From assembly GCF_014960965.1 (NCBI RefSeq), contig NZ_CP063169.1:1211581-1275580 (forward strand): DNA of 64,000 nucleotides. Reading direction: 5' to 3'. This document shows, in pieces, positions 46,743-58,376 of this stretch. This DNA is from Ruania alkalisoli (GTDB lineage: Bacteria; Actinomycetota; Actinomycetes; Actinomycetales; Beutenbergiaceae). How positions within the stretch are numbered: position 1 is the first letter of the stretch; every line of letters begins with the position of its first letter. The notes beneath the pieces are model-generated. The model did not search any database. It was given only the letters and a program-made list of their open reading frames with translations, and had not been told where the DNA came from. Position numbers and translations under genes: made by a program.

Positions 46743-47389
46743 GCTTGCGGGTAGTTCTGGTCGATGACCATCGGATGGTGCGCGTCGGGGTCCGTAGCGA
46801 ACTGGCAGACGACCTCGTGGTGGTCGGTGAGGCCGCCGACGTACCCTCGGCCGTGGCCACGGTGCATGAGCAGCGACCGGACGTGGTGTTGCTCGACGTG
46901 CACCTGCCCGGCGGTGAGGGCGGCGGTGGCGCCGAGGTTCTCCGTCAGTGCTCCGATCTGCTGGGCGATGTGCGCTTCCTGGCGCTCTCGGTCTCGGATG
47001 CCGCGGAGGACGTGGTCTCGGTGATTCGGGCCGGTGCGCGGGGATACGTCACGAAGGCGATCGCCGGAAGCGATCTCTCGGACGCCATCCGCCGCGTGGC
47101 AGGCGGGGACGCCGTGTTCTCGCCACGACTCGCGGGATTCGTGCTCGATGCTTTCGGTACTGCGGCCACCGATGTGGCCGTCGCCGACGACGAGCTCGAC
47201 CGGCTCTCCGCTCGGGAGCAGGAGGTGATGCGCCTCATCGCCCGGGGCTTCACCTACCGGGAGGTGGCGAGTGAGTTGTTCATCTCGATCAAGACGGTCG
47301 AGACACACGTCTCGGCCGTGTTGCGCAAACTTCAGCTGAGCTCGCGGCACGAGCTCACGCGGTGGGCGGCGGTGCGGCGGCTGCTCTGA
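46739..47389 (+). CDS. NarL/LuxR-family response regulator of the PspC kinase
   Basis: A 216-residue regulator. The receiver domain has VVLVDDHRMVRVGV, the phosphorylation site VVLLDVHLPGGEGGGG and LALSVSDAAEDV, and the helix-turn-helix (about 155-210) has LSAREQEVMRLIARGFTYREVASELFISIKTVETHVSAVLRKL. Its start overlaps the kinase stop by 4 bp. Regulation of the divergent PspC gene is likely from the repeats in the shared intergenic region. Confidence 0.95.
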   Translation: MSLRVVLVDDHRMVRVGVRSELADDLVVVGEAADVPSAVATVHEQRPDVVLLDVHLPGGEGGGGAEVLRQCSDLLGDVRFLALSVSDAAEDVVSVIRAGARGYVTKAIAGSDLSDAIRRVAGGDAVFSPRLAGFVLDAFGTAATDVAVADDELDRLSAREQEVMRLIARGFTYREVASELFISIKTVETHVSAVLRKLQLSSRHELTRWAAVRRLL

Positions 47390-47423
47390 CGAGCACCAGC
47401 GCGACCGTGGCTCCCGGGCATCC

Positions 47424-47452
47424 TTGACTAACTTACACCCGTAAGGCAAGGT
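47424..47452 (+). promoter_or_regulatory. Promoter of the deazaflavin-type oxidoreductase gene with operator in the spacer
   Basis: TTGACT (47424-47429) is 17 nt from the weak -10 CAAGGT (47447-47452). Inside the spacer CTTAC-ACCC-GTAAG (47432-47445) is a perfect 5+5 bp inverted repeat. A repressor bound there would block polymerase. No regulator is adjacent that clearly matches it. Confidence 0.45.
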
Positions 47453-47477
47453 GGTGAGTGCTGAAGGGAGTCCTGAC

Positions 47478-47849
47478 ATGGCGATGCCTCGTTGGTGGGG
47501 ACAGATCAACAAGCGCTTCTTCAATCCCCGGGCGATCGCCCGGGGGAAGTGGCCCGTGCTGGTGCACGAGGGCAGGAGCAGCGGTGCGGAGTACCGCACG
47601 CCCATGGATGCTCATCCCGTCCCGGGCGGCTATCTCTTCGTACCGGTCTACGGACTGCAGTCGGACTGGGTGCGCAATGTGCTCGCGGCCGGCCGCGCCC
47701 GTCTGGTTGTGGACGGGCGCGAGGTGGAGCTGACGGCTCCACGGGTGGTGGGTGAGGAGGTCTGGGCGGACGTGCCGGAGGAGATCTCTCCGCCGCCGTC
47801 GGTGTTGCGATTGCGTGACTTCCTGCGCATGGACCTCGTCCAGCGCTGA
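47478..47849 (+). CDS. Nitroreductase/deazaflavin-dependent oxidoreductase family protein (DUF385)
   Basis: A 123-residue beta-barrel protein of the actinobacterial F420-dependent Ddn/DUF385 group: FFNPRAIARGKWPVLVHEGRSSGAEYRTPMDAHPVPGGYLFVPVYG, then DWVRNVLAAGRARLVVDGREVELTAPRVV. It may use F420H2 to reduce a substrate, or be a non-catalytic relative; the sequence does not settle this. ATG 47478 follows AAGGGAG with normal spacing. Confidence 0.88.
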   Translation: MAMPRWWGQINKRFFNPRAIARGKWPVLVHEGRSSGAEYRTPMDAHPVPGGYLFVPVYGLQSDWVRNVLAAGRARLVVDGREVELTAPRVVGEEVWADVPEEISPPPSVLRLRDFLRMDLVQR

Positions 47850-47889
47850 CCGGCGACTCGTCCAGGGCGAGCCGCCGCAGACGTCGAGG

Positions 47890-47895
47890 TAGCGT
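47890..47895 (+). promoter_or_regulatory. -10 element TAGCGT of the SDR gene (leaderless type)
   Basis: TAGCGT is followed by 7 nt and the ATG at 47903. The intervening GGAGG is too close to the ATG to act as a normal ribosome binding site. Confidence 0.55.
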
Positions 47896-47902
47896 GGAGG
47901 TC

Positions 47903-48553
47903 ATGAGTCGCATCGCCATCATCGGAGGGCACGGCAAGATCGCCCTCCTCCTCTCGAAGATCCTCGCCGACCGTGGAGACGAGGTCACCTCGATCATCCG
48001 CAACCCCGAGCACTCGGCTGACGTCGAGGCGACCGGGGCGCAGGCCCTCGTGGCCGACGTCGAGCATCTCAGCGCGACTCAGATCGCCGAGGCGATTGCC
48101 GGTCACGACGCGATCGTCTGGTCCGCCGGCGTCGGCGGGGGCAACCCGGCCCGCACCTACGCCGTCGACCGAGATGCCGCGATCCGCACCATGGACGCCG
48201 CCCAGCTCACCGGGATCCTGCGCTTCGTGATGGTCTCCTACCTCGGTGCCGGCCCGGACCACGGGGTTCCGGAGGACTCCGCCTTCTTCCCCTACGCCGA
48301 GGCCAAGGCGGCGGCCGACGAGCATCTGCGCGCGACCGCCCTCGACTGGACGATCCTGCAGCCGAGCCGGCTGACCGACGAGCCGGGTAGCGGGCGTATC
48401 GCCCTCAGTCAGGAGCGTGGCGAGATCTCGCGTCAGGACGTGGCCGCGGTTGCGGCCCGGGTGCTCGAGCGGGCCGACACGGTGAGTGTCTCGGTTCCGT
48501 TCGTCGGTGGCCAAGTGCCGATCGATGAGGCGCTTGACTCCGTCGTCGGCTGA
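47903..48553 (+). CDS. NAD(P)-binding atypical SDR family protein
   Basis: A 216-residue soluble Rossmann protein. The nucleotide-binding motif is IAIIGGHGKIALLLSKIL, followed by VADVEHLSATQIAEAIAGHDAIVWSAG and YAEAKAAADEHLRATALDWTILQPSRLT. It belongs to the NAD(P)H-binding, YwnB/SDR_a5-like group, often NADPH-dependent or a regulatory NAD sensor. Substrate unknown. Confidence 0.9.
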   Translation: MSRIAIIGGHGKIALLLSKILADRGDEVTSIIRNPEHSADVEATGAQALVADVEHLSATQIAEAIAGHDAIVWSAGVGGGNPARTYAVDRDAAIRTMDAAQLTGILRFVMVSYLGAGPDHGVPEDSAFFPYAEAKAAADEHLRATALDWTILQPSRLTDEPGSGRIALSQERGEISRQDVAAVAARVLERADTVSVSVPFVGGQVPIDEALDSVVG

Positions 48554-48584
48554 ACGCCCGTGAACCGGGTGTGGTCAGGTCGCC

Positions 48585-49133
48585 TCACCGGCCCCGGGTG
48601 GCGAGTTCCTGTGCCAGTTCCACCAGTCTCTCCACCTCGGAGTCTGCGAGCGGATCGACGCTTGCGGCTCGCCTGACCTCGGCGTCGGCGGCGAGGCCGT
48701 CGCAGATGTAGATCAACGCACGGGCAACCAGTGCGTCAGGAACGGCGCCGGCCAGCGTCTCCCGCCAGGCGTCCTGGGCGCGCACCAACGCAAGTGCGGC
48801 GCTCTGGTGTGCTCCGCGCGCGAGGATGGCGATCGCCGCGTAGTAGAGCTCGAACTCAGAGTCGGCGCGTGCGGAGGTGCGCACGATGTAGTCGACCGGA
48901 CCTGCCTCAGCGTTGCGCATCCGATCGGTGTCGGCCGCGACCAAGTCGCCGAAGAAGTCTGCGAGGCCCTCGGTCAGTTCGTCCTTGGACGGGAAGTGGT
49001 AGAGCAGGCCTCCCTTGGAGACGGAGGCGCGATCGGCGACGGCGTCGAGTGTGGCGGCCCGCTCACCCTGGGTCACGAGGATCTCGGCGAATGCGTGCAG
49101 CACCTTCGCGCGTGCTGCCGGGGGTGGCGGCAT
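48585..49133 (-). CDS. TetR family transcriptional regulator
   Basis: A 182-residue repressor-type protein with the N-terminal helix-turn-helix (ATLDAVADRASVSKGGLLYHFPSKDELTEGLADFF) and a helical ligand domain. It is divergent from the MFS exporter gene and is probably its repressor. ATG 49133 is preferred because TACCCT lies 7 nt upstream; the longer GTG at 49166 is less likely. Confidence 0.9.
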   Translation of the reverse strand: MPPPPAARAKVLHAFAEILVTQGERAATLDAVADRASVSKGGLLYHFPSKDELTEGLADFFGDLVAADTDRMRNAEAGPVDYIVRTSARADSEFELYYAAIAILARGAHQSAALALVRAQDAWRETLAGAVPDALVARALIYICDGLAADAEVRRAASVDPLADSEVERLVELAQELATRGR

Positions 49134-49140
49134 GCCGATC

Positions 49141-49146
49141 AGGGTA
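49141..49146 (-). promoter_or_regulatory. -10 element TACCCT of the tetR-like gene (leaderless type)
   Basis: On the minus strand TACCCT is followed by 7 nt and the ATG at 49133. Confidence 0.55.
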
Positions 49147-49189
49147 CGCCAGGTGTCGGAGATCACTCGTCACTCAACCGTCCAGCCGG

Positions 49190-49208
49190 TACAGTAACGA
49201 ATGTTCGT
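49190..49208 (+). promoter_or_regulatory. MFS promoter with candidate TetR operator at the start site
   Basis: TACAGT (49190-49195) is a good -10. It is followed by ACGAA-TG-TTCGT (49197-49208), a perfect 5+5 bp inverted repeat located where transcription would begin. Binding there would block the MFS gene. Confidence 0.5.
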
Positions 49209-49254
49209 CCGATCGCCGGTCTTGCCGACCCGCGCTGCCCGGGAGGTGTCATTC

Positions 49255-50799
49255 ATGTCGCTCACGTTCGACCCCCAGGTCGATCCAGGTCACGACCGCA
49301 CGGTCGTGCCGGTCACGCCGCTCTCGCGTCGGCGCCGGTGGCTCGCCCTGGCGGTGCTGATGCTCCCGGTACTGCTCGTCGCCGTGGACAACACCGTGCT
49401 CAACTTCGCGCTCCCGCAGATCAGCGAAGCGTTGCAGCCGACCGGCACCCAGCTGCTGTGGGTGATCGACATCTACCCACTCGTGCTCGCGGGACTGCTG
49501 GTGCCCATGGGCGCGGCAGCTGACCGATTCGGACGGCGGCGCATGCTGTTGATCGGTGCCGCCGGCTTCGCGCTCGTCTCAGTCGGCGCTGCCTACGCGC
49601 CCACGGCCGCAACCCTCATCGCCGCGCGTGGGCTACTCGGGTTCTTCGGGGCGATGCTCATGCCATCGACCCTGTCGCTGCTGCGTCACATCTTCACCGA
49701 TCGCCAGGAACGTCGGACGGCTATCGCCGTCTGGGGTGCTGGTTTCGGGGGAGGGGCCGCGCTGGGGCCGATCGTCGGCGGCTTCCTGCTCGAACACTTC
49801 TGGTGGGGGTCGGTCTTCCTGCTCGCGGTAGGTGTGCTGGTGCCGTTGCTCGTGCTCGCGCCGCTGTTCGTTCCCGAGTCGGCCGACCCGCGCGCCCAGC
49901 CGGTCGATGCGGTGTCGGTGCTGGTGGTCCTGGCCGGGATGGTGGCGCTCGTCCTGGGGGTCAAGACCTTCGCCAAGGATGGGGCGAGCATTGTCGCCTT
50001 CGGAACCTTCGCCGTCGGGCTGGGCCTATTGACGGCGTTCGTGCGCCGGCAGCGGCGCGTGCGCCATCCGATGATCGAGCTCGACCTGTTCCGGCGCGGT
50101 GGATTCTCCGGCGCGGTGCTGATCAACCTGCTCTCGGTGGTCGCGCTCGTCGGCTTCCTCTTCTTCGCCTCCCAGGATCTGCAGCTCGTGCACGGCCTCG
50201 CGCCGATGCGGGCCAGTCTGGTGCTGCTGCCCGGGGTGTTCGGGATGGTCCTGGCGGGGCTGCTGGCTGCTCGGCTGGCGCGGCGGGTTCGCCCGGTGGT
50301 GATCGTGACCGGTGGCCTGCTGCTGTCGGCGAGCGGGTACCTGCTGGTGGCGCTGGGATCGGCTGACCTGACGCTGCTCGGTGTGGCCTTCGCGATGGTG
50401 GCGATCGGGATCGGGGCGGCCGAGACGCTCTCGAACGATCTCATCCTGTCGTTGGTCCCGGCGGAGAAGGCAGGGGCGGCTTCGGCCATCTCCGAGACTG
50501 CCTACGAGGTGGGATCGGTGCTGGGGACGGCGATCCTCGGCGGCTTGCTGACCAGTGCGTATACCCGCTCGGTGGTCGTGCCGGACGGTGTGGCTGGTGG
50601 GGATGCGGCGGCGGCCCGCGAGACCCTCGGTGGTGCGGTCGAGGTGGCCGGCAGGCTTCCGGCCGAGCAGGCGCAGGCCTTGGTGGCTTCGGCTCAGGAT
50701 GCCTTCGCCTCCGGGATCTGGCTCACGTCGCTCATTGGTTGCGTGCTCGTGCTCGGCGCGGCTGGGATCGCCGTCGGCGCGCTACGCCGGGCCAGGTGA
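49255..50799 (+). CDS. MFS transporter, DHA2 drug:H+ antiporter type (14 helices)
   Basis: A 514-residue membrane protein with about 14 helices. The first helix has the DHA2-type MLPVLLVAVDNTVLNFALP pattern, and motif A is MGAAADRFGRRRMLLIG. Internal polar loops are short. It most likely exports drugs or other hydrophobic cations or lipids; the substrate is unknown. ATG 49255 is 6 nt after GGGAGGTG. The divergent TetR gene suggests substrate-inducible expression. An upstream ATG at 49201 would fall inside the operator. Confidence 0.93.
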   Translation: MSLTFDPQVDPGHDRTVVPVTPLSRRRRWLALAVLMLPVLLVAVDNTVLNFALPQISEALQPTGTQLLWVIDIYPLVLAGLLVPMGAAADRFGRRRMLLIGAAGFALVSVGAAYAPTAATLIAARGLLGFFGAMLMPSTLSLLRHIFTDRQERRTAIAVWGAGFGGGAALGPIVGGFLLEHFWWGSVFLLAVGVLVPLLVLAPLFVPESADPRAQPVDAVSVLVVLAGMVALVLGVKTFAKDGASIVAFGTFAVGLGLLTAFVRRQRRVRHPMIELDLFRRGGFSGAVLINLLSVVALVGFLFFASQDLQLVHGLAPMRASLVLLPGVFGMVLAGLLAARLARRVRPVVIVTGGLLLSASGYLLVALGSADLTLLGVAFAMVAIGIGAAETLSNDLILSLVPAEKAGAASAISETAYEVGSVLGTAILGGLLTSAYTRSVVVPDGVAGGDAAAARETLGGAVEVAGRLPAEQAQALVASAQDAFASGIWLTSLIGCVLVLGAAGIAVGALRRAR

Positions 50800-50817
50800 A
50801 GGTTCGAGCCCCACCCT

Positions 50818-50863
50818 CGAAATTGCTCGTCGATCTGGTCGACCAGATCGACGAGCAATTTCG
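50818..50863. repeat. Perfect 46-bp palindrome between the MFS and small membrane protein genes
   Basis: Bases 50818-50863 are perfectly self-complementary with no unpaired centre: GTCGAC lies at the middle (centre 50840/50841) and the ends are CGAAATTG and CAATTTCG. It starts 18 nt after the MFS stop. In RNA it would be a very stable hairpin, good for ending the MFS transcript. Such length with no mismatch is far beyond chance and suggests an additional role. Confidence 0.9.
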
Positions 50864-50875
50864 CGAACGAACCGG

Positions 50876-50894
50876 TTCTGACGTAGTGTCAGAA
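50876..50894 (+). promoter_or_regulatory. Promoter (-10 TAGTGT) with overlapping inverted repeat
   Basis: TTCTGAC-GTAGT-GTCAGAA is a perfect 7+7 bp inverted repeat. The hexamer TAGTGT (50884-50889) lies in its centre and is 7 nt before the ATG at 50897, so this is both a leaderless-type promoter and a likely operator. Confidence 0.6.
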
Positions 50895-50896
50895 TC

Positions 50897-51244
50897 ATGG
50901 ACATCGTGTACGGAATTGTGTTGGTTCTCCACCTCATCGGGTGGGCGATGGTGCTCGGTGGGGCGATCTATGGCATGCGTAGCGCCGAGCTGAGCAAGGG
51001 AATGCTGCACGGCATCCTGACGGCGCTGGTCGCCGGGATCGTCATGGTTGGCCTGGCCTCGGCGGGCGTGGCAGGCAACGAGCCCAACAACATCAAGATC
51101 GGCGTCAAGCTCATCATCGCGCTGGTGGTGACCGGCATGGTCATCTACGGCGGCCGCAACAGCGAGAAGGTGACCCGCGGATACCTCGGGGGGATCGCGG
51201 GTCTGACCACGCTCAATGTCGCCATCGCGGTGCTCTGGAGCTGA
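50897..51244 (+). CDS. Small four-helix membrane protein
   Basis: A 115-residue integral membrane protein with four helices (IVLVLHLIGWAMVLGGAIYG, GILTALVAGIVMVGLASAGVA, KLIIALVVTGMVIYGG, GIAGLTTLNVAIAVLWS) and short charged loops. No known domain was recognised. It is transcribed alone from the leaderless-type promoter just upstream. Confidence 0.85.
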   Translation: MDIVYGIVLVLHLIGWAMVLGGAIYGMRSAELSKGMLHGILTALVAGIVMVGLASAGVAGNEPNNIKIGVKLIIALVVTGMVIYGGRNSEKVTRGYLGGIAGLTTLNVAIAVLWS

Positions 51245-51330
51245 GAAGTCGCGTGGTCACGAGCGGTCGCCAAGGCGCATCCGGCCTGCCCGGAGCCGAT
51301 AGATGAGACCCTGGCCACACTTTGCCTGAT

Positions 51331-51363
51331 GTTCACCTGATGTTCATCTAACGTTCCCTGTCT
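51331..51363 (+). promoter_or_regulatory. PHO-box-like triple direct repeat
   Basis: Three gapless 11-bp units read GTTCACCTGAT, GTTCATCTAAC and GTTCCCTGTCT; a degenerate fourth precedes them. They match the actinobacterial PHO-box pattern (GTTCACC-type direct repeats bound by PhoP). It lies 48 nt upstream of the symporter start, so the phosphate locus is probably PhoP-activated under phosphate limitation. Confidence 0.8.
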
Positions 51364-51410
51364 TGCCGGCGCGCTGACCCCCTTGGCACCGGTTGACTTG
51401 GACCGTGCCC

Positions 51411-52697
51411 ATGACTGACGGGATTGGCGAGATGAGCCACCAGCAGCCCGAGCGAATCGTCACCTCAGACCCCGAGACCCCCGTCGCCGGCACCACGGTC
51501 CTCACTGCGGGCGAGATCAGCGCCGACACGGTCGCTGAGAGTCCGCTCCGCGGGCCGTTCGACTCACTGATCGCTGAAGGGCGAGCGCGGTCGGTCGTCA
51601 ACTGGCTCTCCGTCGTCGTCTCGGTCTACGTCCTGATCTCCGCCGTCGGAGTGATCGGGGCCGGCTTCAAAGCGGCCACCGGCGGCCAGGCCGAAGCACT
51701 GTTCGGCTTCGCCAGCAACCCGATCGTGGCGCTCATGGTGGGCGTGCTCGCCACTGCGGCCACCCAGTCCTCCTCCACCACGACCTCCATCACGGTGGGT
51801 CTGGCAGCGGGTGGGTTGCCGCTGGAGATCGCGATCCCGATCATCATGGGTGCCAACATCGGCACCACGCTCACAAACACCCTGGTGAGCGTCGGAATGA
51901 TCCGCAACAAGGATGACTTCCGGCGTGCCTTCGCCGCCGCGACCGTGCACGACTTCTTCAACCTCCTCGCCGTGCTCATCCTGCTGCCGCTGGAGATCGC
52001 GACAGGCTTCCTGGAGCGCGTATCCGGGTGGCTTGCTGGTGCACTCACCGGGGTGGGCGGGGTCGACACCGACAGCGTGGACGTCGTCGGTGCGGCAACA
52101 GCGCCGCTGGAGAGTCTCGTCGGCTCGCTCACGGAGCCGTTGGCCGCACCCTGGGGCGGACTGGTGATGATCGCCGTCGGCGTGGCGCTCATCCTCCTGT
52201 CGATCACCTTCATCGGGAAGGTGCTCAAGGTCCTGATGGTCGGTCAGGCCAAGCGGGTCCTGCATGGCGCCATCGGCCGCGGGCCGATCAGTGGCATCGC
52301 CTCCGGAGCCGTGGTGACGGCGATCGTGCAGTCGTCCTCGACGGCCACATCGCTGATGATCCCGCTTGCCGGTTCGGGCACGTTCACACTGCGTCAGATT
52401 TACCCATTCACGCTTGGCTCGAACATCGGCACCACCGCGACCGCGCTGCTGGCGGCACTCGGTCTGAGCGGGGTCGACGCCGCCCTCGGACTGCAGGTCG
52501 CGCTGGTGCACCTGCTGTTCAACCTGACCGCCACGGCCGTCATCTTCGGGATCCCGTTCCTGCGTGCCATCCCGATCAAGGGCGCCACCTGGCTGGCCGG
52601 CCGATCGGCGGAGAACAAGTCCTTCGCCGCGGTGTGGGTGCTCGGGGTGTTCGTCGTTGTTCCTGGCCTGTTGATCGCTGCCACCACCATCTTCTGA
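51411..52697 (+). CDS. Na+/phosphate symporter (PNaS family)
   Basis: A 428-residue membrane protein of the NptA/PNaS (SLC34-like) type. Two inverted repeats each carry the signature: ATQSSSTTTSITVGLA in the first and VQSSSTATSLMIPLA in the second, with GANIGTT and GSNIGTT in the matching positions. It should take up inorganic phosphate with sodium. A polar 60-residue N-terminus precedes the first helix; ATG 51411 was chosen over TTG 51393 and ATG 51432. It sits directly under a PHO box and is followed by a coiled-coil gene and a PstS-like lipoprotein gene. Confidence 0.93.
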   Translation: MTDGIGEMSHQQPERIVTSDPETPVAGTTVLTAGEISADTVAESPLRGPFDSLIAEGRARSVVNWLSVVVSVYVLISAVGVIGAGFKAATGGQAEALFGFASNPIVALMVGVLATAATQSSSTTTSITVGLAAGGLPLEIAIPIIMGANIGTTLTNTLVSVGMIRNKDDFRRAFAAATVHDFFNLLAVLILLPLEIATGFLERVSGWLAGALTGVGGVDTDSVDVVGAATAPLESLVGSLTEPLAAPWGGLVMIAVGVALILLSITFIGKVLKVLMVGQAKRVLHGAIGRGPISGIASGAVVTAIVQSSSTATSLMIPLAGSGTFTLRQIYPFTLGSNIGTTATALLAALGLSGVDAALGLQVALVHLLFNLTATAVIFGIPFLRAIPIKGATWLAGRSAENKSFAAVWVLGVFVVVPGLLIAATTIF

Positions 52698-52707
52698 GAG
52701 GCCGATC

Positions 52708-53094
52708 GTGAACTCCACCAGCGACCACGATCCATCCACCCCCGAACCGGCCGACGAACACCCGCCCCTCACCGAGGAGGACGTGCCACGTTCCCTCGAG
52801 GAGATCGACGCGGCCCTCGTGCGTCTGATGGCCGAGACCGAGGCGACAGTCAACCGGCTCCGCGCCGAGCTGGCCGAGCGCCGTCAGCACGAGGCACAGC
52901 ACGCCGAGATCGAGCGACTCGAACACCACCTCGCCGAGGCCACAGTGAACTGGTCGAAGGTCAAGGAGTTCTTCGAAGAAGTGCTTCGTGAGCTGACCGG
53001 CCGGCAGGCGGCCGCCCCTGGCGAGGACGAGCGCCCCCTCGGACGTCCCGCAGGCGACGAGAGGCGGAGCGGCCCGGGAACGGAGGAGCGATGA
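52708..53094 (+). CDS. Small coiled-coil protein of the phosphate locus
   Basis: A 128-residue soluble, acidic protein. Residues about 30-100 form a long helix with coiled-coil character (ALVRLMAETEATVNRLRAELAERRQHEAQHAEIERL), and the C-terminus is charged and disordered. No domain was recognised. GTG 52708 lies 10 nt after the symporter stop, and the gene overlaps the PstS-like gene by ATGA, so it is firmly part of the operon. A role in coupling or regulating the transporter is inferred, as PhoU does for Pst systems, but it is not a PhoU homologue. Confidence 0.85.
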   Translation: MNSTSDHDPSTPEPADEHPPLTEEDVPRSLEEIDAALVRLMAETEATVNRLRAELAERRQHEAQHAEIERLEHHLAEATVNWSKVKEFFEEVLRELTGRQAAAPGEDERPLGRPAGDERRSGPGTEER

Positions 53095-54062
53095 CCCCGA
53101 CGAACCGGCGCGCTGCCGCAGCCACGCTGGCCGGTGTGGCCGCACTGGCACTGGCTGCCTGTACGGGTCAGGCGTCCGCCACCGACCAGATCGAGATCTC
53201 GGGATCGTCCACCGTGGCTCCCATCACCGAGCACGTTGCCAGAATGGCCGGGCAGGACGTGTCGGTGACGGCGGAGGGCACCGAGGACGGGTTCGCGCGC
53301 TTCTGCGCGGGTGAGACTGCGATCAACAACGCCTCCGAAGCCATCCCCCAGGAGTTCCTGGACGCCTGCGAGGCCGCCGGGGTGGAGTTCATCGAGCTGC
53401 CGATCGCCTGGGACGCCCTCGCTGTGGTGGTGCATGCCCAGAACGAGTTCGCCGACGACGTCACGATCGAGGAGCTGGGCGCGATCTGGGCCCCGGACTC
53501 GAGTGTGCAGACCTGGCAGGACGTGCGGCCGGAGTGGCCGGACTCCGAACTCACCCGCTACGGGCGACCGGATGGGTCGGGCACGTTCGCCACCTTCACC
53601 CATCAGGTCAACGGCGAAGCGGGCCAGATCGTCGAGGGAGTGCAGTCCTCGGACGACATCACCGAACTCACCGGCTGGGTCGCGGACGACCCGGGGGCGA
53701 TTGCCTTCATGGGCATCGGCAACTACCTCGGCAGCGCCGAGACGCGCGACGAGCTGACCACCGTGAGCATCGATGGGGTGGCACCCTCGCGCGAGCGCGT
53801 CCAGGATGGCAGCTACGAGCCGCTGAGCCGGCCGCTGTTCATCTACGTCTCCACGACTGCGCTGGAGTCAGAGGACGTGACGGGGTTCGTCGAGGCCTAC
53901 CTGGAGCAGGCGCAGGCTTCCGCAGCCCTGACGTTCTTCTACGCTCTGGACGACGAGCTCACCGCGGCGGCCGCGCAGCGTTTCGAGGCGCGCGTGACCG
54001 GGTCGGTGTTCGATGGTGACCCGTTCGGTGAGGTCGATCTGCTCGAGGCGCTCACGTCCTGA
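53091..54062 (+). CDS. PstS-like phosphate-binding lipoprotein
   Basis: A 323-residue solute-binding protein with a lipobox LAAC after a hydrophobic signal, then the PstS-type fold: IEISGSSTVAPITEHVARMAG, ICE-type hinge, and YGRPDGSGTFATFTHQVNGE. The conserved Ser/Thr residues that hold phosphate are in GSSTVAP and DGSGTF. No pstC, pstA or pstB genes follow; instead the gene is in the operon of the Na+/phosphate symporter. Its partner and mechanism are therefore open. Confidence 0.9.
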   Translation: MTPTNRRAAAATLAGVAALALAACTGQASATDQIEISGSSTVAPITEHVARMAGQDVSVTAEGTEDGFARFCAGETAINNASEAIPQEFLDACEAAGVEFIELPIAWDALAVVVHAQNEFADDVTIEELGAIWAPDSSVQTWQDVRPEWPDSELTRYGRPDGSGTFATFTHQVNGEAGQIVEGVQSSDDITELTGWVADDPGAIAFMGIGNYLGSAETRDELTTVSIDGVAPSRERVQDGSYEPLSRPLFIYVSTTALESEDVTGFVEAYLEQAQASAALTFFYALDDELTAAAAQRFEARVTGSVFDGDPFGEVDLLEALTS

Positions 54063-54126
54063 TGCGGATGGGCCGATTCATGCGGCTACCTCAGCAACGG
54101 CACGCGATGCGGCACCATGGGGCGCA

Positions 54127-55344
54127 ATGACTGAGGCAACTGAGACCGAAGTCCGCTCGCGCGGTTCCGTGGGTGAGGTGTTCTGGATCTTCCTGCGGCT
54201 CGGCTTGACGTCCTTCGGCGGTCCGGTGGCGCACCTCGGCTACTTCCGGGAAGCCCTGGTGCAGCGGCGCCGCTGGCTGACCGATGCCGCCTACGCCGAC
54301 ATCGTGGCGCTGTGCCAGTTCCTGCCCGGCCCCGCCTCCAGCCAGGTCGGTATGGCGCTCGGCCTGCGCCGAGCGGGCATCGGCGGGATGCTGGCCGCCT
54401 GGTTCGCGTTCACGATGCCCTCCGCCATCGTGCTCGTGGCCTTCGCCTACGGCGTGTCCGCGTGGGGAGATCTCGACGGCGCAGGCTGGCTTCTCGGACT
54501 GAAAGCGGCGGCCGTGGCCGTGGTTGCCCAGGCGGTGCTCGGGATGGCCAAGACGCTCACCCCGGATGCGCCGAGGGCTACCATCGCCGCCGCCGCCATG
54601 ATCCTGGTGCTGTTGGTGCCGAGCACCGTGGTGCAGGTGGTGGTGATCGCAGCGGGTGGTCTGGCCGGGCTGCTGTGGCTGCGGGCACGGGAGGATGCGG
54701 TGCCCGGCGACGACAGCGACCTGGCTCTCCCTGTGTCGCGCCGCACCGGGGTGATCTGCCTGAGCCTCTTTGCCCTGGTGCTCGCGGGGTTGCCGATCCT
54801 GGTAGCACTCACCACTGACCCCACCCTCCGGCTCGTGGACCTGTTCTACCGGGCCGGGTCACTGGTGTTCGGCGGCGGGCACGTGGTCCTCCCGCTGCTG
54901 GAGTCCGAGACTGTGGCCACGGGGCTGGTCGGGCATGACACCTTCCTCGCCGGGTATGGGGCCGCACAGGCGGTGCCTGGCCCGCTGTTCACCTTCGCCG
55001 CCTATCTCGGGGCCAGCACCACCGCGGGACCAACGGGAGTTCTCGGCGGCGCGATCGCGTTGCTGGCGATCTTCCTGCCCGCGGCGTTGCTGGTGCTCGG
55101 GGTGCTGCCGTTCTGGGACCGCCTCCGGCGGGTGCGGGCCGCGCGGCGCGCACTGCTGGGAATCAACGCGGCCGTGGTGGGCATCCTCGCCGCCGCGTTG
55201 TACGACCCGGTGTTCACACAAGGTGTGACCTCCGCGACCGCCCTGGCGCTGGCCGTGGCGGTGTTCATCGCGCAGACCTGGTGGAAGGTGCCCGCCTGGG
55301 CGGCAGTAATTGGTGCAGGGGTCGTCGGCTTCTTCGTGCTGTAG
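54127..55344 (+). CDS. chrA: Chromate transporter, ChrA family
   Basis: A 405-residue membrane protein with two homologous halves of about six helices. The CHR motif of the first half is LGLTSFGGPVAHLGYFREALVQRRRWLTDAAYADIVALCQFLPGPASSQVGMALG, and the second has FYRAGSLVFGGGHVVLPLLESE and AAQAVPGPLFTFAAYLGA; only short pieces are quoted. It may export chromate or a related anion. ATG 54127 was chosen. Confidence 0.92.
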   Translation: MTEATETEVRSRGSVGEVFWIFLRLGLTSFGGPVAHLGYFREALVQRRRWLTDAAYADIVALCQFLPGPASSQVGMALGLRRAGIGGMLAAWFAFTMPSAIVLVAFAYGVSAWGDLDGAGWLLGLKAAAVAVVAQAVLGMAKTLTPDAPRATIAAAAMILVLLVPSTVVQVVVIAAGGLAGLLWLRAREDAVPGDDSDLALPVSRRTGVICLSLFALVLAGLPILVALTTDPTLRLVDLFYRAGSLVFGGGHVVLPLLESETVATGLVGHDTFLAGYGAAQAVPGPLFTFAAYLGASTTAGPTGVLGGAIALLAIFLPAALLVLGVLPFWDRLRRVRAARRALLGINAAVVGILAAALYDPVFTQGVTSATALALAVAVFIAQTWWKVPAWAAVIGAGVVGFFVL

Positions 55345-55422
55345 CCCGCGCCGTCAGAACGGCCGATCGGGGTGACGGTGATGCGTCTGTGGACACGTGC
55401 GTTCGATGTCGGACCGAGCGCA

Positions 55423-55428
55423 TAGGCT
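55423..55428 (+). promoter_or_regulatory. -10 element TAGGCT of pcrA
   Basis: TAGGCT lies 9 nt before the ATG at 55438, so the transcript would have at most a few leader bases. Confidence 0.5.
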
Positions 55429-55437
55429 CGGGTCGCG

Positions 55438-57933
55438 ATGACATCACTGTTCGACGACCTGCCCCTGTTCCCCTCCGCCACGGTTCCCGTTGGCGGTGAC
55501 TCCCACCTGCCCGGTGTGCCCTCCCGGACTGCCGACGAGGCTAGCCCCGCGGAGGCGACACCCGGGGAGAGCGAGGGGCCGCCGTCGTTGGCCGCCGAAG
55601 CACTCCTCGACGGGCTGAACCCGCAGCAGAAGGCCGCGGTGGAGCACACCGGCGGGCAGCTGCTCATCATCGCCGGCGCCGGATCGGGCAAGACCCGCGT
55701 GCTCACGCACCGCATCGCCTACCTGCTCGCCACCGGGCGGGCGCGCCCGGGGCAGATCCTCGCGATCACGTTCACCAACAAGGCGGCCGCGGAGATGCGT
55801 GAGCGCGTCGCCGAACTGGTGGGCCCGCGTGCGGCGGTGATGTGGGTCTCCACCTTCCACTCCGCGTGCGTGCGGATCCTGCGGCGGGAGGCGAAGACGC
55901 TGGGGATCCGATCGTCCTTCTCCATCTATGACGCCGCCGATTCCCAGCGGTTGATGACGCTCGTGTGCCGCGAGCTGGACCTCGACCCCAAGCGTTACCC
56001 GCCGAAGGCGTTCAGCCGGCGCGTCTCGGACCTGAAGAACGAGCTGATCGATCCTGACAGCTACGCCGGCGAGGTGAGCGAGTCCAACCCCTACGAGCAG
56101 AACCTGCTCGCCGCCTACCGGCTCTACAACGAGCGTCTCCGGCAGGCGCACGCGCTCGACTTCGACGACATCATCATGACCACGGTCAGCCTGCTGCAGG
56201 CCTTCCCGGCCGTGGCCGAGCACTACCGCCGCCGGTTCCGGCACATCCTGGTGGACGAGTACCAGGACACCAACCACGCCCAGTACATGCTGGTGCGTGA
56301 GCTCACCGGTGTCACAACCGAGATCGCCGACGGCGCAGGTTCTGTTGCCGAGGAGGGCGCCCTCGCGGCCCTCCCGCCCGCCGAGCTGACCGTGGTGGGT
56401 GACTCCGACCAGTCCATCTACGCCTTCCGCGGTGCCACGATCCGCAACATCCTCGAGTTCGAGGCCGACTACCCGAACGCGCGCACCATCGTGCTCGAGC
56501 AGAACTACCGCTCCACCCAGACGATCCTCACGGCCGCGAACGCGGTGATCGCGAAGAACTCCGGGCGGCGCGCGAAGAACCTGTGGACCGACTCCGGCGA
56601 CGGCACCCAGATCGTGGGGTACGTCGCCGACAACGAGCACGAAGAGGCGCGCTTCATCGCCGAGGAGATCGACCGGCTCATCGACGCCGGGACCCTCGCC
56701 CCGAAAGATGTGGCGGTCTTCTATCGCACCAACGCCCAGTCGCGTGCGCTGGAAGAGGTGTTCATCCGCACCGGACTGCCGTACAAGGTAGTGGGCGGCA
56801 CCCGCTTCTACGAGCGCAAGGAAATCAAGGACGCGATCGCCTATCTGCGGTCGATCGCCAACCCGGACGACTCGGTGAACCTGCGCCGCATCCTGAACGT
56901 CCCCAAGCGCGGGCTGGGGGATCGGGCCGAGGCGATGCTCGCCGCGCACGCCGAACGTGAACGAGTCTCGTTCGGGGCGGCGATCGAGGATCTCGACAAC
57001 GTCCTCGGGCTGGCCACGCGATCGATGACGGCCGCGCGCGGGTTCGCGGACATGATGCGCGAGCTGCGGGCGCTCGCGGACGGCGGGGCCACACCGGCGG
57101 AGGTGCTGGACGCCGCACTGGACAACTCGGGCTATCTGGGCGAACTACGCGCCAGCAACGACCCGCAGGACCACTCCCGGGTGGAAAACCTGGCTGAGCT
57201 GCATGCGGTGGCGGCCGAGTTCACCGAGAACGAGCCCGAGGGCGACCTCGGGGACTTCCTGGAGCGGGTCTCCCTCGTGGCCGATGCCGACCAGATTCCC
57301 GACGACGATGCCGGCATGGTCACCCTGATGACGGTGCACACAGCGAAGGGTCTGGAGTTCCCGGCGGTGTTCGTCACCGGGATGGAGGACGGCACGTTCC
57401 CGCACCAGCGGGCGCTCGCCGATCCGGACGAGCTCGCCGAGGAGCGACGGCTGGCGTATGTGGCACTGACGCGCGCCCGGGAACGGCTGTACCTGACCCG
57501 CGCCGGGGTGCGGACCTCGTTCGGGATGCCGAACGAGCAGCCCGCGAGCCGGTTCCTCTCCGATGTCCCTCCGGAGCTGCTGGACTGGAAGCGCGAGGAG
57601 TCCTCGATGGCGACCCTGCGTGCCGGGCGTGGGGGATACGGCGGGTTCGGCGGCCAGGGTGGATCCGGAGGTGGGCGGCGAGGTTCGCGCGGTCCGTCCG
57701 GTCCTGCGGTGACCACCACCCGGGGGGAGCGACCCGCGTCTTTCGGCTCGGCCACGCCGCGCGGGGACGTGCCTACGCTCGACATCGGCGACCGGGTCAC
57801 CCACGACGCCTACGGCATGGGGCGGGTGGTGGCCCTGGAAGGAACGGGCAGCAACGCCGTCGCCAAGATCGACTTCGGTGGCAGCGGGACCAAGCGGCTG
57901 TTGCTGCGGTACTCGCCGGTGGAGAAGTTGTAA
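55438..57933 (+). CDS. pcrA: UvrD/PcrA-type ATP-dependent DNA helicase
   Basis: An 831-residue superfamily 1 helicase for nucleotide-excision and replication-linked repair. Motifs are in order: Walker A IIAGAGSGKTRVLTHR (about 78-93), ITFTNKAAAEMRERV, Walker B ILVDEYQDTNHAQYML, GDSDQSIYAFRGA, QNYRSTQTIL, MTVHTAKGLEFPAVFV and VALTRARERLYLT. After a Gly/Arg/Ser-rich linker, the C-terminal Tudor-like RNA polymerase-binding domain (GDRVTHDAYGMGRVVALEG) is present. A 50-residue acidic N-terminal extension is seen. It precedes sucCD, the same order as in mycobacteria (uvrD1 near sucC). Confidence 0.97.
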   Translation: MTSLFDDLPLFPSATVPVGGDSHLPGVPSRTADEASPAEATPGESEGPPSLAAEALLDGLNPQQKAAVEHTGGQLLIIAGAGSGKTRVLTHRIAYLLATGRARPGQILAITFTNKAAAEMRERVAELVGPRAAVMWVSTFHSACVRILRREAKTLGIRSSFSIYDAADSQRLMTLVCRELDLDPKRYPPKAFSRRVSDLKNELIDPDSYAGEVSESNPYEQNLLAAYRLYNERLRQAHALDFDDIIMTTVSLLQAFPAVAEHYRRRFRHILVDEYQDTNHAQYMLVRELTGVTTEIADGAGSVAEEGALAALPPAELTVVGDSDQSIYAFRGATIRNILEFEADYPNARTIVLEQNYRSTQTILTAANAVIAKNSGRRAKNLWTDSGDGTQIVGYVADNEHEEARFIAEEIDRLIDAGTLAPKDVAVFYRTNAQSRALEEVFIRTGLPYKVVGGTRFYERKEIKDAIAYLRSIANPDDSVNLRRILNVPKRGLGDRAEAMLAAHAERERVSFGAAIEDLDNVLGLATRSMTAARGFADMMRELRALADGGATPAEVLDAALDNSGYLGELRASNDPQDHSRVENLAELHAVAAEFTENEPEGDLGDFLERVSLVADADQIPDDDAGMVTLMTVHTAKGLEFPAVFVTGMEDGTFPHQRALADPDELAEERRLAYVALTRARERLYLTRAGVRTSFGMPNEQPASRFLSDVPPELLDWKREESSMATLRAGRGGYGGFGGQGGSGGGRRGSRGPSGPAVTTTRGERPASFGSATPRGDVPTLDIGDRVTHDAYGMGRVVALEGTGSNAVAKIDFGGSGTKRLLLRYSPVEKL

Positions 57934-57973
57934 GGGTGCTGTGACGTCGGCCCTCGGCGGTGTCTGGGAGACG

Positions 57974-57979
57974 TAGCGT
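57974..57979 (+). promoter_or_regulatory. -10 element TAGCGT of the small membrane protein gene (leaderless type)
   Basis: TAGCGT is followed by 7 nt and the ATG at 57987. No ribosome binding site intervenes. Confidence 0.55.
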
Positions 57980-57986
57980 CGAGGCG

Positions 57987-58376
57987 ATGGACTCCCGAGC
58001 GCAGCGACCTGATGCGATCCCAGCAGCGTCGGCTGTTGCTGCGTGGGAGGTCGAGGATCGCAGGAGCAGGCGTCGCGAACGTCGGCTGCTGGTCAGTGGC
58101 GGAGTCTGCTCACTAGCACTGATGGTCCTCTGGCCGACGGTTGCGCTGCTCGGGCGCGGCAACGACAACGCCGAGCACAGATGCCACGACGCCATCGACG
58201 CCTGGTCCGTGGAGTCGCGACTTGAGAACCCACCGGCGCGGCTGTATTGCCGGGCCGAGGGTGGCGACTGGGTCCTGGTGGCGGACTGGACCGCGTTCAC
58301 TGTCGTGACCGGCCTCCTGGGCCTGGGGATGCTCGCGTGGGCGTTCGTGCTCTGGTGGCGCGAGGCAGGCCGCTGA
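57987..58376 (+). CDS. Hypothetical two-helix membrane protein
   Basis: A 129-residue protein with a charged N-terminal tail (RRSRRRERR), a helix (LLVSGGVCSLALMVLWPTVALL), an outer loop with two cysteines (CHDAIDAW, LYCRAEGG) that may form a disulfide, and a second helix (FTVVTGLLGLGMLAWAFVLWW). No known domain was recognised. Confidence 0.72.
   Translation: MDSRAQRPDAIPAASAVAAWEVEDRRSRRRERRLLVSGGVCSLALMVLWPTVALLGRGNDNAEHRCHDAIDAWSVESRLENPPARLYCRAEGGDWVLVADWTAFTVVTGLLGLGMLAWAFVLWWREAGR

Follow-up and report, generated by a model that had tools for sequence, protein, structure and literature searches.

Can a phosphate-binding protein of the PstS type, at home in an ATP-binding cassette (ABC) transporter, supply inorganic phosphate (Pi) to an ion-driven symporter? 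The question is raised by an operon of Ruania alkalisoli (single-contig genome of 4.45 Mb), in which the gene of a PNaS symporter, related to the SLC34 family of human intestinal and kidney phosphate transporters, is followed by genes for a small coiled-coil protein and a PstS-like lipoprotein. The operon lies at positions 51331-54062 of the 64,000-nt stretch of DNA that was analysed (the window). We propose that it is a phosphate-starvation Na+/Pi uptake module, in which the lipoprotein would supply the SLC34-type symporter and the coiled-coil protein would regulate it from inside, a reading that we place slightly below an even chance. The evidence that carries it is the gene content and spacing, a PHO-box-like repeat in common with pstSCAB, a lipoprotein clade met only beside the symporter, and Pi contacts kept by alignment. 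The locus itself is genuine, its genes staying together in several genera; it has a PHO-box-like switch, and its binding protein is a specialised one.

Organization of the PNaS operon

The repeat and the three genes behind it all run in one direction and are tightly spaced, as follows.

51331..51363, + strand: PHO-box-like operator, three 11-nt direct repeats GTTCACCTGAT GTTCATCTAAC GTTCCCTGTCT
51411..52697, + strand: PNaS, by family an SLC34/NptA-type Na+/Pi symporter without PhoU domain (PF02690 twice)
52708..53094, + strand: small, predicted soluble alpha-helical coiled-coil protein, usual partner of this PNaS type
53091..54062, + strand: PstS-like, putative phosphate-binding lipoprotein of the PNaS-linked clade (PF12849; predicted fold; clade support 100/100)

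The symporter and coiled-coil genes are 10 bp apart, and the coiled-coil gene overlaps the lipoprotein gene by 4 bp (ATGA). By family membership, the first protein is an SLC34/NptA-type Na+/Pi symporter. At E up to 1 its only Pfam family was PF02690, matched in two stretches (115.1 bits vs a cut-off of 29.1); NF037997 was reached with 104.3 bits (cut-off 50), and the score for TIGR01013 (sodium-dependent inorganic phosphate transporter subfamily) stayed below its cut-off (178.9 bits vs 306.15). Among PDB sequences it matched chains named 'Solute carrier family 34 member 2a' (E 3.1e-54). QSSST motifs, invariant across 15 aligned homologues, stand in both halves of the protein, with QSSS, a conserved motif of NaPi-II proteins (PMC6325988), at Q119-S122 and Q307-S310. 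This numbering counts from the adopted ATG at 51411; the start codon is unsure, the longest frame opening with TTG at 51393 and ATG 51432 being possible too.

The lipoprotein carries the lipobox-like LALAAC at its N-terminus and matched PF12849 with 100.2 bits (cut-off 27); its score for TIGR02136 (PstS family protein), 192.3 bits, fell just below the cut-off of 206.6. Its AlphaFold2 model (mean predicted local distance difference test score, pLDDT, 89.4) was matched best by 4jwo in a Foldseek search (E 1.9e-27, template modelling score 0.71 by query length).

These results bear out the initial annotation of the window, which had placed a PNaS symporter and a PstS-like lipoprotein in one operon, with the coiled-coil gene coupled by an ATGA overlap. 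Its further statement that pstCAB is missing holds for the operon, since tblastn matched no pstC, pstA or pstB within window positions 47001-58000, but not for the genome, which carries a single full pstSCAB at another place (L081), where the PstS is a different one. The membrane proteins of TRAP transporters, DctQ and DctM, were likewise not found in the Pfam scan of the six proteins encoded at 49201-55344.

A lipoprotein clade linked to the symporter

Homologues were sought in the order (396 genomes) and in the class (394 genomes), the first searches covering 198 genomes of the order. Among these 198, the lipoprotein query (P0003) matched 18 and the symporter 17; six of the lipoprotein matches (E 4e-8 to 2e-4) and two of the symporter matches (G033, G080) were weak. 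Lipoprotein matches of at least 51% identity came from four genomes (the window's, R. rhizosphaerae or G105, G118 and G008), and all four lay beside a PNaS gene. A profile search of the 396 genomes returned the same four at 545-606 bits and all others at 244 bits or less, a gap widened by the profile having been built from those members. A scan of named genomes added Microbacterium halotolerans and Frigoribacterium sp. JB110. The closest named relative found was R. rhizosphaerae, whose lipoprotein is 92% identical (its two loci, L095 from G105 and L014, were counted once, as one genome).

In a PstS tree of 32 rows, the six PNaS-linked proteins formed one side of a branch with support of 100/100 and a long stem (0.99). 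Members are 50-92% identical to the window protein, and therefore the linkage of PstS to PNaS has outlasted much divergence. When all 32 loci were searched by tblastn, a PNaS gene was present at 6/6 clade loci vs 0/26 outgroup loci, and pst permease or ATPase genes at 0/6 vs 25/26; the outgroup exception, L047 (3.9 kb), showed neither, and several of the outgroup loci span less than 4 kb. The symporter, coiled-coil and lipoprotein genes keep the same place and order at all six loci, with gaps of -8 to 14 bp between the latter two, and these three genes are the only part of the cluster common to all six.

Such constancy of place, order and gap, together with the kept binding residues described below, makes it highly improbable that a mobile PstS gene has merely hitchhiked, inserted behind PNaS and spread by transfer without any shared function, an idea for which the patchy presence of the lipoprotein speaks. 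It is also improbable that the lipoprotein serves as a simple buffer, raising local Pi at the membrane with no specific contact to the symporter: Pi has been reported to accumulate in the periplasm of marine bacteria (PMC7250820), but a buffer would not need a lasting linkage to one symporter type. By eye, the PNaS and PstS trees both place the window next to R. rhizosphaerae and join M. halotolerans to Frigoribacterium, and leave G118 and G008 apart from these four; once the PNaS tree is pruned to the six members with a PstS partner, its groups agree with those of the PstS tree, which is what genes moving as a set would show. The deep branching of the trees is unsure because of long branches.

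A PHO-box-like repeat in common with pstS

The 11-nt direct repeat, three units long, starts with position 51331 as its first base. With up to 2 mismatches allowed, GTTCAYCTNNNGTTCAYCTNNNGTTC was matched once in the window, and shuffled sequence gave a mean of 0.00 matches. The strict two-unit pattern GTTCAYNYNNNGTTCAYYT had exactly two sites in the 4.45 Mb genome, one before the PNaS operon and one before the chromosomal pstS; the reversed pattern, used as a control, gave 0 matches genome-wide. Direct repeat units of 11 nt are known as PhoP boxes ahead of Streptomyces pstS (PMC7866108). On our reading, the PNaS operon would be induced by Pi starvation. We scored the upstream regions of 22 out of the 24 PNaS genes in the tree against the repeat consensus, leaving out L093 and L094, which gave no match in a separate scan. 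In 11/22 the score was at least 16 of 18, and the best of 1992 random window stretches reached 15. In G008, which has two PNaS copies (L083), only the second has a strong PHO box.

A common regulon could also mean that the lipoprotein is an extra PstS feeding the chromosomal PstCAB, its place in the PNaS operon reflecting nothing but co-regulation under Pi starvation. The PHO-box pattern common to the operon and pstS agrees with this, as do the PF12849 match and the PstS-type fold; several actinobacteria possess more than one PstS; and pstC was present in 11/11 genomes checked, including all six with the clade lipoprotein. However, pstS already adjoins pstC in each of these six genomes, and pst genes are found beside none of the six clade lipoproteins. 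The clade's relatives, moreover, go with a second type of PstC/PstA (family 2), which a PstC family search did not find in the window genome; only one PstC/PstA pair was detected there at E up to 1e-30, whose PstC is about 27-33% alike to its counterparts in family-2 operons. In G008 a second pst operon of the family-2 type is present, and therefore its lipoprotein could serve an ABC permease. Taken together, we regard an extra PstS as unlikely.

A pst operon lacking its own PstS and borrowing the window lipoprotein, which the initial annotation had named as a finding that would speak against its proposal, was considered and rejected: the chromosomal pstSCAB has its own PstS beside pstC. That PstS is 26% alike to the lipoprotein over 174 residues. 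Besides this PstS and the window lipoprotein, PF12849 matched one further place in the genome, weakly, at 1085551 (34.3 bits), bringing its matches to three. Near pstSCAB stand genes that we take to be ppk, pitA and a PIT accessory gene by their resemblance.

Predicted Pi contacts and pocket of the lipoprotein

Seven Pi contacts have been reported for CpPstS (structure 9JWY; PMC12421899), and by sequence alignment all seven are kept in the window protein (S39, S40, T41, T64, S82, G164 and T165); position 64 is Ser in two of the six clade members. CpPstS has Pro where the PstS proteins of E. coli, M. tuberculosis and C. perfringens have a Pi-binding Arg (PMC12421899). R159 occupies this position, and all six clade members have Arg there; the outgroup has Pro in 15/24 rows, the remainder being mostly Ala by eye. 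At position 83, Glu was found in 6/6 clade members vs Arg in 24/24 outgroup rows, and the genome's own canonical PstS has Asp at this site (motif GSDA), which presumably corresponds to Asp56 of E. coli PstS. The clade pocket departs from the outgroup at E62, D66, E83, R159 and G162, a comparison made with 24 outgroup rows (L052 and L053 left out). The lipoprotein fits a Pi binder with a re-tuned pocket, and a change of ligand, for instance towards arsenate, is possible.

A pocket that differs from that of the outgroup would also suit a Pi sensor or gate, which would signal the external Pi level through contact with the symporter or with a membrane kinase, with no hand-over of substrate. Pi importers are commonly paired with accessory regulators (PMC13170248), and related symporters manage without the lipoprotein. 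A sensor is nevertheless quite unlikely, in our view, as the Pi contacts match those of uptake proteins and only the three genes are common to all six loci.

On a Cellulosimicrobium plasmid (L162), a family-2 pst operon lies near genes annotated as ArsR and arsenate reductase; the genes ahead of the PstS of L047 resemble these and are, we assume, of the same kind. Arsenate may have shaped the family-2 PstS type.

The coiled-coil gene accompanies the symporter gene

The coiled-coil protein matched no Pfam or NCBIfam family above cut-off. There was no PhoU domain among its 10 Pfam matches, nor among 25 of the 58 families matched by 14 homologues (E up to 1). Its AlphaFold2 model has helices at 30-78 and 82-101 (mean pLDDT 75.3) and gave no PDB match with Foldseek; the best PDB sequence matches were coiled coils of eukaryotic receptors, at E 0.0036 and weaker. 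The gene lies directly 3' of 18/23 testable PNaS genes (G071, at a contig edge, is outside this count): all 16 with at least 59% identity and flanking sequence, 2/6 in a class-level family (f38), and not G134 (43% identity). A profile search of the 394 class genomes gave strong matches in four genomes, at five sites that all adjoin PNaS, and five weaker ones (E 9.5e-4 to 7.7e-3) in longer frames, which look like chance.

The initial annotation had suggested that the coiled-coil protein could link the symporter to the lipoprotein. This bridge was rejected, because the protein has no membrane-like segment (highest 19-residue hydropathy 0.53) and its gene follows the symporter in many genomes that have no PstS-like gene. 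It looks cytosolic, and therefore it could not link directly to the lipoprotein. Rather, it looks like the symporter's own cytosolic partner, more constant than the lipoprotein. Three types of accessory regulators have been described for Pi importers, that of NptA being a C-terminal PhoU domain (PMC13170248). Because the window PNaS is without such a domain, the coiled-coil protein is a candidate stand-in for it, and may offer a lead toward the regulator of NptA proteins that have no PhoU domain.

Distribution of the module and evidence against the proposal

The initial annotation had proposed to check whether the three genes stay together across genera. The symporter and PstS-like genes do so in at least three genera (the window's, g13 and g16) and in two named Microbacteriaceae, but the PstS-like gene is absent behind most related symporters, even within the same genus. 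This absence speaks against a fixed partnership and, with the observations that follow, weighs against a lipoprotein-fed symporter. For the symporter family as a whole the lipoprotein is dispensable. The clade is rare, being found in 4/396 order genomes and in 4/17 order genomes with a PNaS match (two of these matches are weak). At family level it occurs in 2/24 genomes, both in the window's genus (2/8), and two other lipoprotein matches in the family are of the pst type by score; in the genus of G118 it was found in 1/38 genomes. Three genomes of the genus Ruania (G031, G047, G189) have PNaS and the coiled-coil gene behind the same two upstream genes, with no PstS there.

The PNaS genes with a PstS partner do not form a clade (approximately unbiased test, p 1e-89), which implies either several losses of the lipoprotein or its transfer from one operon to another. 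When four symporters with a PstS partner were compared with five relatives without one, only 6 special residues were found, of which five fall in a stretch of 13 residues close to the C-terminal end; this comparison left out G118 and G008. A strong PHO box precedes only 2/6 of the loci with the lipoprotein (the window and R. rhizosphaerae), the scores being 12-14 in M. halotolerans, Frigoribacterium, G118 and the first PNaS copy of G008. The presence of two pst operons in G008, one of the family-2 type, also belongs here. In a first PstS tree of 30 rows the linked proteins needed 2 changes and formed one group in 58% of bootstrap trees. That tree was faulty, as L051 had been translated on the wrong strand and a far row, L041, was included; in the 32-row tree L051 was corrected, L041 was taken out, and L047, L052 and L053 were added. 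Near-copies (L095, L029, L033, L034, L030, L017 and L025) are outside both trees, and L022 was never added. L015 and L016 entered via the PstS search, and these two are hence not an unbiased sample of PNaS loci.

In G008 (L083, 5351-9593) five genes stand in a row: PNaS, coiled coil, PstS, PNaS, coiled coil. In G118 (L082, 9341-11917) the PNaS cluster is preceded by genes that we take, by resemblance, to encode subunits of an Mrp-type Na+/H+ antiporter. A plasmid collection gave 74 PstS records, all below 60% identity, and 3 PNaS records; two of the records were inspected, one of which is unannotated and one a pst operon. A plasmid home of the module is not supported by these matches.

Proposed mechanism

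In the proposed uptake module, Pi limitation would lead to PhoP-type activation of both the pst and the PNaS operon. The lipoprotein, anchored in the membrane and facing the outside of the cell, would capture Pi at low concentration and deliver it to the symporter, or concentrate it there. The SLC34-type symporter would then import Pi using the Na+ gradient, and the cytosolic helical protein would act on it from the inner side, probably taking the regulatory part that the PhoU domain plays in other NptA proteins. Gene linkage and the aligned Pi contacts suggest Pi binding and delivery in this sense, and the system may be a further case in which a binding protein supplies a pump not driven by ATP.

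Neighbouring genes

The gene downstream, called from 54127 to 55344, encodes a ChrA-type chromate transporter (PF02417; TIGR00937, 331 bits). In two Ruania relatives (L085, L086) a chromate-type gene stands behind PNaS and the coiled-coil gene with no PstS there, and we therefore treat it as a neighbour outside the module. Upstream, window positions 50897-51244 encode a 115-aa protein with no Pfam family above cut-off, and look-alikes occupy the same place before PNaS in the three Ruania genomes G031, G047 and G189. Positions 48585-50799 hold a divergent regulator gene, presumably TetR-like, and an MFS efflux gene; the best NCBIfam match here, LfrA, was below cut-off. No Rfam family was found at gathering threshold, and no promoter or terminator by consensus.

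Comparison with known systems

We found no printed PstS-PNaS partnership in the open-access literature, which omits most subscription journals; the excerpted texts of PMC12872454 and PMC8115612 contain no such pair. According to the report on TAXI-GltS, only the TRAP and TT families had previously been known as secondary transporters with a soluble binding protein (PMC12344293). A symporter fed by a lipoprotein would, to our knowledge, be the first such case for the SLC34 family and for phosphate, which we consider possible but somewhat doubtful.

The Ruania locus resembles PstSCAB in the predicted PstS fold of its binding protein, in the Pi contacts, which agree by alignment, and in a PHO-box-like repeat upstream, but the PNaS cluster is without PstC, PstA and PstB. 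As in the NptA types of Vibrio cholerae and Bacillus subtilis, the symporter has no PhoU domain (PMC13170248); unlike them, the Ruania type has a small coiled-coil protein as a separate partner, joined in some genomes by a PstS-like lipoprotein. The combination of an extracytoplasmic binding protein with an ion-driven secondary transporter recalls the TRAP and TTT systems (PMC12344293), whereas the membrane protein here belongs to PF02690 and is neither a TRAP nor a TTT membrane protein.

The closest described case is TAXI-GltS of Bordetella pertussis. There, too, the gene of a binding lipoprotein lies directly behind and overlaps that of a Na+ symporter, no cognate tripartite permease is adjacent, and most relatives of the symporter work alone (PMC12344293). 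The two differ in their families, TAXI and ESS in the one and PstS and PNaS/SLC34 in the other, and in the coiled-coil gene that intervenes in the Ruania locus. Fusion proteins are known for TAXI-GltS, and ligand binding, which has been demonstrated there, is predicted for the Ruania lipoprotein. The authors of that work suggest that elevator transporters suit binding proteins and may be required for them, and that further classes would let this proposed requirement be tested (PMC12344293). An elevator-like mechanism has been proposed from models of NaPi-II (PMC6325988). If our proposal is true, a bacterial SLC34 relative taking Pi from a binding protein would provide a direct test of the elevator requirement, and would show how the binding protein of an ABC transporter can be moved to an ion-driven pump.

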